Positions 6,350 through 12,813 of a stretch of 64,000 nucleotides of DNA are shown piece by piece; the first letter of the stretch is position 1, and each line of letters begins with the position of its first letter. The DNA is taken from assembly GCF_021117405.1 (NCBI RefSeq), contig NZ_CP088251.1:2170001-2234000 (forward strand), read 5' to 3'. The position numbers and the translations under genes were made by a program. Under the pieces are notes generated by a model, which searched no databases, had not been told where the DNA came from, and saw only the letters and a program-made list of their open reading frames with translations. This DNA comes from Frateuria edaphi (GTDB lineage Bacteria > Pseudomonadota > Gammaproteobacteria > Xanthomonadales > Rhodanobacteraceae).

Positions 6350-6395
6350 CTCCCTCTCCCCTCTCCGGGGAGAGGGTCGGGATGGGGGGCCGGGG
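6350..6395 (+). repeat. Palindromic repeat, family B, copy 1
   Basis: Contains a perfect 10-bp stem, CCCTCTCCCC (6352-6361) and GGGGAGAGGG (6367-6376), with a five-base loop, followed by a TCGGGATGGGG-type tail. An inverted, more degenerate copy lies at 6517-6556. A second pair with the same layout sits at 9968-10100. Confidence 0.7.
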
Positions 6396-6414
6396 CTCGC
6401 CTCGGGCCAAGACG

Positions 6415-6445
6415 AAAAAGCCCGGGCAATGCCCGGGCTTTTTTT
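6415..6445. terminator. Bidirectional rho-independent terminator
   Basis: Stem GCCCGGGC / GCCCGGGC with an AAT loop, flanked by five A on the left and a T run on the right. It sits between the convergent ends of the RND pump gene (6342, plus) and the acyl-CoA dehydrogenase gene (6564, minus), so it can stop both transcripts. Confidence 0.85.
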
Positions 6446-6516
6446 GGCTAGACGAAACGGCTGGTTTGCAGGGGGCAACCCTTACGAAGGGTATCTCTGT
6501 CGACTTCCCCGCGAGG

Positions 6517-6556
6517 CCCGCCCTCACCCCAGCCATCTCCCCACTGGAGACGGAGC
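6517..6556 (-). repeat. Palindromic repeat, family B, copy 2 (inverted)
   Basis: Read on the minus strand this segment resembles copy 1: a CCGTCTCC...GGGGAGA stem followed by GGCTGGGGTGAGGGC. It lies immediately downstream of the acyl-CoA dehydrogenase stop and faces copy 1 across the terminator. Confidence 0.55.
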
Positions 6557-7850: not shown

Positions 7851-7859
7851 AGGATGAAA

Positions 7860-8786
7860 ATGGATCTGGCGACCGCCTCCGGCGTCCTGCGCCTGCTGGC
7901 CGATCCCACCCGCGTGCGGCTGCTGGCATTGCTGGAGCGCGAGGAACTGACCGTGGCCGAGCTGGCGCAGGTGCTGCACCTGGCCCAGCCGCGCGTGTCC
8001 ACGCACCTGGCCAAACTCAAGGAAGCCGAGCTCGTGCGCGATCGCCGCGCCGGCGTGTCGGCCTACTACCGCGCCAATAACGAGGGCGACTCGCACCAGC
8101 ACGCCCTGCTCCACTCGCTGCGCGAGAGCATCGACGATGCCCTGTTGCGCGAGGACGCTGCCCGCCTGCCATCCGTGCTGGCCAATCGCGCCCGTGCGGA
8201 AGGCTGGGCCGATACCGTCGCCGGCGACATGGAACGCCACTACTCGCCCGGCCGCACCTGGGAAACCCTTGCCCGCTCGCTGCTGCAGCTGCTGGAAACC
8301 GGCGACGTACTGGACATCGCCTCGGGCGACGGCATCACCGCCGAGTTGCTGGCCCCGCACGCGCGCTCGATCGTCTGCGTGGATTCGAGCGACCGCGTGG
8401 TTGCCGCGGCCGCACAACGTCTGAAGGCCTTTTCGAACGTGGAAGTGCGCGAGGGAGACATGCACGCGCTGGACCTGGGCAAGCGTCGCTTCGACCTGGT
8501 GCTGATGCTGCACGCACTGACCTATGCCGAACGCCCGTCCCAGGCCGTGGCCGAGGCGGCGCGCCTGCTCCGCAGCGGTGGCCGTTTGCTGGCGGTGACG
8601 TTGGGCAAGCACGACCATCGCACCGCGGTCGAGCCGTTCGACCACCGCAACCTCGGCTTCACGAGCGAGGAGCTGTCGGGTCTGGCCACCGACGCCGGCC
8701 TGAGCGTGTCCAGCTGCGTGCGCCTGAGCCGGGAGCGCAAGGCGCCGCACTTCGAAGTGATCAGCCTGCTGGCGCGCAAGCCGTAA
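7860..8786 (+). CDS. ArsR-family regulator fused to a SAM-dependent methyltransferase domain
   Basis: 308 residues with two domains. Residues 1-75 are a winged helix of the ArsR type (ADPTRVRLLALLEREEL, then recognition helix LAQPRVSTHLAKLKEAELV). Residues about 110-308 are a class I methyltransferase fold with SAM motif I VLDIASGDG at 150-158, acidic VCVDSS after strand 2, and FDLVLMLHALTYAERP. Metal-binding cysteines of classic ArsR sensors are absent from the wing region. ATG 7860 is preferred over 7854 because AAGG at 7850-7853 gives it proper spacing. The gene lies just upstream of split metH. ArsR regulators of methionine genes that sense S-adenosylhomocysteine (SahR) are known in Proteobacteria; SAM/SAH sensing by the second domain is an inference here. 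Confidence 0.82.
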   Translation: MDLATASGVLRLLADPTRVRLLALLEREELTVAELAQVLHLAQPRVSTHLAKLKEAELVRDRRAGVSAYYRANNEGDSHQHALLHSLRESIDDALLREDAARLPSVLANRARAEGWADTVAGDMERHYSPGRTWETLARSLLQLLETGDVLDIASGDGITAELLAPHARSIVCVDSSDRVVAAAAQRLKAFSNVEVREGDMHALDLGKRRFDLVLMLHALTYAERPSQAVAEAARLLRSGGRLLAVTLGKHDHRTAVEPFDHRNLGFTSEELSGLATDAGLSVSSCVRLSRERKAPHFEVISLLARKP

Positions 8787-8791
8787 TCGAT

Positions 8792-8815
8792 CCTTCCCCC
8801 GCGCGCGGGGGAAGG
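8792..8815. repeat. Perfect 24-base palindrome
   Basis: CCTTCCCCCGCG followed directly by its reverse complement, in the 84-base gap between the regulator and metH. It lacks a T run, so it may be an intergenic repeat or an attenuating hairpin rather than a full terminator. Confidence 0.6.
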
Positions 8816-8870
8816 TGCCAAAGGGCGAATGAGGGGGCCCGCCTCATGCCCGCACAGCCGAGAAAACACC

Positions 8871-9950
8871 ATGTCCACCCTGCCCTGGCTCCATCCCGAT
8901 CGCGTCGCCCAACTCGAACGGGCGCTGCGCGAGCGCATCCTGATCCTCGACGGCGCCATGGGCACCATGTTGCAGGGCCATGCGCTGGACGAGTCCGGCT
9001 TCCGCGGCGAGCGCTTCGCGCATGGGCATGACGACCAGCACGACCACTCGCACCCCGGCAGCTGCGACCTCAAGGGCAACAACGACCTGCTCTCGCTTAC
9101 CCGCCCGGAGCTGATCCGTGGCGTGCACGAGGCCTATCTCGATGCCGGCGCGGACCTGCTCGAGACCAACACGTTCAATTCCACCCGCATCAGCCAGGCC
9201 GATTACCACCTCGAGCACCTCGCCTACGAATTGAACCTCGAAGGCGCACGGCTGGCGCGCACCGCCTGCGATGCCTGGACCCTGAAAACGCCGGACCGGC
9301 CCCGCTTCGTCATCGGCGTGCTCGGGCCGACCAGCCGTACCGCGTCGCTCTCGCCGGACGTCAACGACCCGGGCTTCCGCAACGTCACATTCGAGGAGCT
9401 TGCGGCCAATTACCGCGAATCCGCCGCCGGCCTGATCGACGGTGGCGCCGACGTCGTGATGGTGGAAACCATCTTCGACACGCTCAACGCCAAGGCTGCG
9501 CTGTTCGCCCTGTCCGAGCTCTTCATCGAACGCGGTGCGCGCGTGCCGATCATGGTCTCCGGCACCATCACCGACCGCTCCGGCCGCACGCTCTCGGGCC
9601 AGACCGCCGAGGCTTTCTACTATTCGATCGCCCACGCCCGCCCCCTCGCCGTGGGCCTGAACTGCGCGCTCGGCGCCGCCGACCTGCGCCCGCACGTGCA
9701 GACCCTGGCCGACATCGCCGAGTGCTACGTCAGCACCCATCCCAACGCCGGCCTGCCCAACGCCTTCGCCGAATACGACGAGACGCCCGCGCAGATGGCC
9801 AGCGTCGTCGCCGGGTTCGCGCGCGACGGCCTGCTCAACCTGGTCGGCGGCTGCTGCGGCACCACGCCGGCGCACATCGCGGCGATCGCCGAGGCGGTGC
9901 GTGACTGTGCGCCGCGCAGGTTGCCCGGTGCCGTGCAGGAGGCGGCATGA
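8871..9950 (+). CDS. metH: Methionine synthase, homocysteine-binding (N-terminal) protein
   Basis: First half of cobalamin-dependent methionine synthase: the zinc (beta/alpha)8 barrel that binds and activates homocysteine. 359 residues, starting at [10 protein letters not shown]. Motifs are [40 protein letters not shown], and the zinc ligands Cys265 (GLNCALG) and Cys328-Cys329 (GGCCGTTP), corresponding to E. coli Cys247/310/311. Residues 51-61 form a histidine-rich insertion ([11 protein letters not shown]) absent from E. coli MetH. The remaining MetH domains are a separate gene starting 163 bases downstream. Two-protein MetH occurs in related bacteria, to my knowledge, so this is probably not a recent break. 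No ribosome site is obvious. Confidence 0.92.
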
Positions 9951-9967
9951 GCGCCGCCTACCCATTG

Positions 9968-10002
9968 CCTCTCCCCTCCGGGGAGACGGTCGGGGTGAGG
10001 GG
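9968..10002 (+). repeat. Palindromic repeat, family B, copy 3
   Basis: CCTCTCCCCTCCGGGGAGA stem followed by CGGTCGGGGTGAGGGG. It lies inside the gap between the two metH genes and is paired with an inverted copy at 10057-10100. Confidence 0.65.
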
Positions 10003-10056
10003 CCGCTCCAGCAAAAAGCCCGCATCCACGTCCGCTCTTTTGCAGTTCTCCGCAAG

Positions 10057-10100
10057 CCCCGTCCCCTCACATCGATCCTCTCCCCACGCCGGAGAGGAGG
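10057..10100 (-). repeat. Palindromic repeat, family B, copy 4 (inverted)
   Basis: On the minus strand it reads CCTCTCC...GGGGAGAGG, then TGTGAGGGGACGGGG. It faces copy 3 about 55 bases away, so the metH intergenic RNA could fold into one long stem. Confidence 0.6.
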
Positions 10101-10113
10101 CCAACGCAAACGC

Positions 10114-12813
<2,700 letters not shown>

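Follow-up and report, generated by a model that had tools for sequence, protein, structure and literature searches.

In Frateuria edaphi, methionine synthase is encoded in two halves, and the DNA between them is filled with palindromic repeats. The locus was studied in a window, i.e., the whole stretch of 64,000 nucleotides analysed here, corresponding to positions 2,170,001-2,234,000 of a single 3.77-Mb contig, and in its relatives.

The split metH and the repeats in its gap

From sequence, ORFs and Pfam domains, metH was found divided into metH1 and metH2, with a 163-nt gap between them (Table 1). The metH1 frame is open from position 8829, its likely start being the one chosen by a home-made codon-score gene caller, and it closes on a TGA (9948-9950); metH2 begins with an ATG and carries Pterin_bind, two B12-binding domains, and the Met_synt_B12 activation domain. 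Among named records, the best MetH1 matches were Frateuria species, with 89-92% identity, records of the genome itself being possibly absent. The gene preceding metH1 is a putative SamR, and its position beside metH1 and metH2 agrees with the published SamR of Xanthomonas, which adjoins both genes in the portion of the article available (PMC4239095); the Xanthomonas met operon dealt with in the accessible part of another article is metA-metB-hom, metH not being its subject (PMC6230763).

Table 1. Coordinates of the features at the metH1-metH2 junction, numbered from the first letter of the window.
Feature	Position	Strand	Basis
Gene with ArsR-type HTH and methyltransferase domains, just upstream of metH1	7854..8786	+	PF01022, PF08241
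metH1, homocysteine S-methyltransferase half	8871..9950	+	PF02574 (E 4.4e-94, scanned from 8829)
AGGAGG Shine-Dalgarno in metH1, 4 nt ahead of the linker start codon	9937..9942	+	Sequence; anti-SD duplex -10.3 kcal/mol
Linker ORF, 56 codons	9947..10117	+	Translated, internal stops absent; frame conserved in relatives
Long RNA stem, predicted	9951..10107	+	Folding
Palindromic repeat copy 1, consensus cCCTCTCCCCtcCGGGGAGAGGgttGGGGTGAGGGGccg (lower case, weak positions)	about 9967..10003	+	
Palindromic repeat copy 2, inverted	about 10058..10100	-	
metH2, folate / B12 / activation half	10114..12813	+	PF00809, PF02607, PF02310, PF02965

The initial annotation had described a metH split by a gap of this length holding two head-to-head palindromes, and both parts were confirmed by the Pfam halves and the located repeat copies. 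In addition, the linker ORF, which that annotation had left unlisted, crosses both copies in a single frame. Its 5' end is an ATGA (9947-9950) overlapping the metH1 stop by 4 nt, and its terminal TGA (10115-10117) lies within the ATGA (10114-10117) that forms the metH2 start; therefore, the 4-nt stop/start overlap, a geometry of termination-reinitiation, is present at both ends of the linker.

With the gap as query, a BLAST search of its own genome found 46 matches at E<=1e-3 (of 73 first-look candidates, 40 were scored), so the gap repeat is no chance similarity. Fifty copies were located in 38 own-genome stretches plus the window and, where neighbouring copies lie less than 200 nt apart, nine of ten pairs are arranged (+,-), like the metH gap, and one (-,+). 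A second inverted pair of the same repeat occurs in the window at 6353-6542, between an RND-type transporter gene and a convergent acyl-CoA dehydrogenase-like gene (names by eye). Copies are mainly extragenic, being inside a called gene in 3/37 repeat-bearing stretches (L186, 2001-2174; L190, 1935-2035; L198, 2009-2049), in each case a long one. As judged by eye, the 50-copy consensus contains neither a GTAG nor a CGTC tag, although individual copies may contain such letters. A local RAYT was considered as mobiliser and rejected, no repeat copy being present within 2 kb on either side of the sole Y1_Tnp match in the genome (L199). An Rfam identity for the gap was likewise discarded, its four matches all falling under gathering scores (E 0.025-0.58) and belonging to unrelated families.

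Junctions in relatives: spacing, frame, and register

Matches were obtained in 219 of the 233 genomes of family f1, and 141 were examined, these being the best by similarity among the matches listed, with about a dozen listed ones omitted; together with 11 loci from other families of the order, they make up the 152 loci compared. metH is split in 144 and fused in eight. The sole fused metH among the f1 loci examined belongs to genus g2 (L030), and could represent a reversal or a transfer. Split loci comprise 25 overlaps by 4 nt, three overlaps by 1 nt, 38 gaps of 0-39 nt, and 78 gaps of at least 40 nt, of which 51 are bridged by an ORF and 27 have no full bridge (ATGA definition). Gap fillings differ, consisting of several repeat families or unique DNA. 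A conserved split with a variable gap, which had been proposed as a check in the initial annotation, was thus found over 144 loci and, since the split is kept while the filling varies, the repeats arrived later. A second locus set (80, of which 74 usable) had 33 bridged and six unbridged gaps, but many of its contigs are those of the main set and it is not independent.

The 4-nt ATGA overlap is present in L029 and L037, which belong to other families and sit on long branches, and is otherwise scattered over the tree (FastTree, 280 columns, midpoint-rooted, 61/141 inner forks weakly supported). On account of this spread, we infer that it was the ancestral state of the junction. Two junction types coexist in genus g36 (taken as Rhodanobacter), the tight one mostly ATAA-(n)-ATGG and the long one xTGA-linker-ATGA: among its 21 tight loci metH1 ends in ATAA in 15, and its 13 long gaps (at least 40 nt) are all bridged, with the metH1 stop in ATGA or GTGA.

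Frames were compared with dinucleotide shuffles in the 73 gaps of 40-350 nt. Five gaps longer than 350 nt stand outside the frame, stem, and bridge counts; L085 is bridged, and L025, L026, L027, and L155 are not. In L025 and L027 about 600 nt separate metH1 from metH2, with a gene-sized ORF resembling a short-chain dehydrogenase in L027 (by eye), and the unbridged gap of L026, of about 500 nt, contains tandem repeats (by eye). Of the three frames, the one with its TGA overlapping the metH2 ATG is open in 63/73 gaps, against 38.6 expected, while the metH2 frame (39/73, against 38.4) and the third frame (30/73, against 37.7) are not in excess. An N-terminal extension of MetH2 through the repeats was rejected, the metH2 frame being open at the shuffle level.

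A full bridge in loose form was defined as an ORF starting from -60 to +10 of the metH1 stop and ending from -12 to +4 relative to the metH2 start; strict bridges have a stop that overlaps the metH2 start. Loose bridges were found in 55/73 gaps, against 30.0 expected from shuffles, and strict ones in 46/73, against 20.3, leaving 18 and 27 gaps, respectively, without a bridge; neither count was reached in any of 200,000 draws made as if the gaps were independent of one another. Bridge ORFs range from 19 to 202 codons and their sequence differs widely between genera. Furthermore, bridges are also made from other repeats or from repeat-free DNA: L062 and L127 have a different repeat, and further examples are L085 (202 codons), L142, and L110.

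Gap length follows the same register. Among gaps of at least 40 nt, 56/78 have a length of 1 mod 3, and among those whose metH1 stop has a start codon in xTGA and whose metH2 start is ATGA/GTGA the proportion is 42/50. Over all gaps of at least 40 nt, the difference is a multiple of three in 22/37 tree-disjoint pairs of unequal length (P 0.001). With one vote per cluster of related gaps, the bias stays at the strictest threshold (22.4/41, P 0.006) and is gone at loose thresholds (10.2/26, P 0.36; 8.4/23, P 0.52), because the 39 gaps with the repeat family of the window fall together in a single cluster. Consequently, distinct lengths and tree-disjoint pairs were tested inside this cluster, where 36/39 gaps are 1 mod 3. 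Between 76 and 601 nt, 25 distinct lengths occur in it, and 22 of these are 1 mod 3 (P 2e-8); out of 19 tree-disjoint pairs 17 are unequal in length, and in 15 of these the difference is a multiple of three (P 4e-6). By these comparisons of sequence the register is held, whether the insertion was single or repeated. In L147 (159 nt) and L091 (134 nt) the register is shifted, and the gap is nevertheless bridged from a different start codon, located at the metH1 stop or ahead of it.

In genera g29, g8, g6, g14, and g15, all 12 gaps of 40-350 nt are unbridged, and these genera therefore seem able to dispense with coupling; in the remaining 16 genera, 55/61 are bridged. Repeat-bearing gaps are also found among the unbridged ones, with a stop inside in L058 and L069, and out of register in L116.

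Proposed passage of ribosomes from metH1 to metH2 and competing explanations

We consider it likely that the junction was translationally coupled when the repeats inserted, and that they have been kept where the ORF that they form still carries ribosomes to metH2. The anatomy of the junction, the frame bias, and the register-keeping changes in length are the directly observed parts of this explanation, and translation of the linker followed by reinitiation would be the mechanism behind them. In the ancestor, the metH halves would have been coupled in translation through the 4-nt ATGA overlap; palindromic repeats, in many cases inverted pairs, as well as other DNA would later have become placed precisely at the boundary of metH1 stop and metH2 start, so that an ATGA remained on each side. 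After finishing metH1, ribosomes could restart at the old ATGA, whose Shine-Dalgarno is retained, translate the repeats as a short ORF, stop at the second ATGA, and restart on metH2. Moreover, a purine-rich stretch before metH2 (10091-10097) pairs with 9968-9974 in the predicted stem, which translating ribosomes would open. Selection would have purged bridge-breaking gaps in most genera sampled, and length changes would thus stay in register. In E. coli, reinitiation at a distance of 38 nt was reduced by 80-90% in two gene pairs and abolished in a third, in the text available from PMC10666635, from which one would expect metH2 to be uncoupled by a bare gap of 163 nt. In this context, the inserted DNA has probably been kept readable in most sampled relatives so that ribosomes pass from metH1 to metH2.

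Shine-Dalgarno strengths bear on this reading in both directions. Linker start codons in ATGA/GTGA have strong Shine-Dalgarno sequences (median -5.9 kcal/mol, 29/38 at -4 or below), and metH2 starts in bridged loci have weaker ones (median -2.8 kcal/mol, 14/51 at -4 or below), somewhat above the background of random sites in metH1 (-1.7 kcal/mol, 12% at -4 or below). In the unbridged class, a compensating Shine-Dalgarno was not seen, with 3/27 metH2 starts reaching -4 kcal/mol. In the overlap class these sequences are weak, 7/28 being at -4 kcal/mol or below, which counts against the coupling model.

Translation of the gap might serve mainly to exclude Rho or RNases from C-rich untranslated RNA, the restart on metH2 being secondary. 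For this purpose an open frame would serve equally, and the + strand of the gap is C-rich in parts (by eye). However, such an ORF need not end on the metH2 start, yet strict bridges are present in 46 gaps against 20.3 in shuffles; and in genus g36 the metH2 start is an ATGA in all 13 long gaps and only in 2/21 tight junctions. We therefore regard this explanation as unlikely, though it deserves consideration.

A second explanation, improbable in our judgement, is that of the initial annotation, in which the proportion of the two proteins is set by an RNA stem of the paired palindromes, through protection from RNases or through partial termination. Its structural premise, one long RNA stem, was borne out by folding: RNA 9940-10125 reaches -77.1 kcal/mol (z = -3.33), and 2/200 dinucleotide shuffles were at least as stable. 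Stems with z <= -2 are predicted in 34/50 bridged gaps, and in five congeners (L011 omitted) 201/221 pair cells are kept, with 3/45 pairs changing on both sides, or 1/43 once L020 is added. L011 was excluded from these pair counts, as well as from the pN/pS and third-position counts given below, since its gap sequence aligns poorly. Nevertheless, stems at this threshold are also predicted in 14/23 unbridged gaps, and bridged gaps without a stable stem exist (z above 0 in L142, L110, L136, L046, L092, L079, and L015); as the frame is kept across unrelated gap sequences, the stem does not appear to be the thing that matters, nor would it demand length changes in multiples of three. Partial termination found no support either, no terminator-like site (G+C-rich hairpin plus T-run) being present on the coding strand in 8600-10400; the only such site is on the - strand (10133-10112), where shuffles expect 0.9. 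A simple scan of the coding strand found no promoter in the gap.

That the linker encodes a functional small protein is quite improbable. A third-position excess was detected in five congeners, weak as it is (P 0.0047), and pN/pS is 0.68 in the linker's own frame but 0.98 and 1.29 when the frame is shifted; this constraint is weak beside that of the flanking genes in the same congeners (0.09 in metH1 and 0.04 in metH2). Moreover, the ORF of the window has no Pfam match, its codon usage is unlike that of genes (-0.45 per codon, compared with +0.21 for metH1), and the sequence and length of linkers vary widely between genera, from 19 to 202 codons. Because of these pN/pS values and the codon usage, the peptide looks disposable, of little or no use.

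Chance, in the sense that G+C-rich repeats are often open in some frame, has some points in its favour, since the gap of the window is open in two of three frames, shuffles alone yield 30/73 loose bridges, and one vote per cluster weakens the length bias. We hold it to be very improbable, as the coupling frame alone exceeds shuffles, the length register is held, and few other junctions with the repeat are bridged. Indeed, among 28 co-directional repeat junctions examined in the own genome six are bridged including metH, i.e., 5/27 of the others, or 4/20 of those with gaps up to 350 nt, in a control that used home-made codon-score gene calls, allowed the ORF to end from -20 to +30 of the start, and covered gaps of 85-1903 nt, mostly longer than metH gaps, in which an open frame is less likely. 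Since 22/27 other repeat junctions are unbridged, the repeat does not usually seem to bring a bridge along, and the metH junction seems to select for one.

The frr-uppS junction, one of the five other bridged ones (L170, 1392-2880; L200-L205), has the same repeat between its genes. A TTGA..ATGA ORF bridges this gap in 4/6 congeners, with lengths to that start of 1 mod 3 in 6/6, and overall the bridge is present in 8/30 loci. As a general second case it was rejected, being bridged in only 4/24 loci outside the genus; within Frateuria, it may be a second case of such a filter.

Two -1 frameshifts at the ATGA sites, giving a fused MetH with the repeats as linker, would be permitted by the register, but are hardly credible, with a slippery sequence seen at neither ATGA (by eye) and linkers of up to 202 codons.

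Taking the preferred reading, in which ribosomes are carried through the insert, one step further, coupled junctions might filter mobile repeats: in most of the family, any repeat between metH1 and metH2 would survive only as a translated bridge, and selfish palindromes would become disposable ribosome-carrying ORFs, a generalisation to which we give about an even chance. The locus is a natural experiment across many species on how strongly translational coupling limits insertions between two genes. The same reading predicts translation of some short repeat-made ORFs that annotators would discard as spurious, and length register together with frame could provide a simple sequence test for coupled gene pairs that have drifted apart.

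Comparison with known systems

Open-licence PMC literature on repeats and translational coupling, or on these genera, yielded no earlier description of such a repeat bridge, as judged by titles and the opening lines of abstracts. Among known repeats, REP/BIME elements are short, many-copy palindromes in inverted pairs, mostly intergenic and often near the 3' end of the upstream gene, according to the excerpted text of PMC3733652. The metH-gap repeat shares all these traits, but its consensus lacks the GTAG/CGTC tag and it has no repeat-flanked RAYT. The same source, within the part available, describes Rickettsia palindromic elements (RPE) and intragenic REPs as palindromic repeats tolerated inside open frames (PMC3733652), and the metH-gap palindromes are likewise tolerated in an open frame; however, RPE and intragenic REPs lengthen a protein, whereas the metH-gap repeats form a separate ORF between two proteins. 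With termination-reinitiation at ATGA overlaps, the junction shares the same geometry at both linker ends, and it differs in that inserted repeats, read as an ORF of their own, stand between the two metH genes.

The hosts of MIRU, the mycobacteria, belong to a phylum other than that of Frateuria, and the primary MIRU paper is reportedly on senX3-regX3. In the accessible text of PMC12548453, MIRU is a mobile-looking repeat that inserts at a start codon, with its ORF coupled at -4 spacing and expression little harmed. The metH linker is similarly an ORF made of repeats, with a 4-nt ATGA overlap coupling it to metH2. Unlike MIRU, the metH-gap repeat is palindromic, bridges at the metH junction are made of several repeat families or of unique DNA, and this repeat bridges at only 5/27 other junctions, bridging as a trait of the element itself being our reading of what PMC12548453 makes available on MIRU. 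In brief, the metH junction would work like MIRU, though most other examined copies of its repeat do not bridge; selection would act on the metH junction and not be a property of the repeat element.
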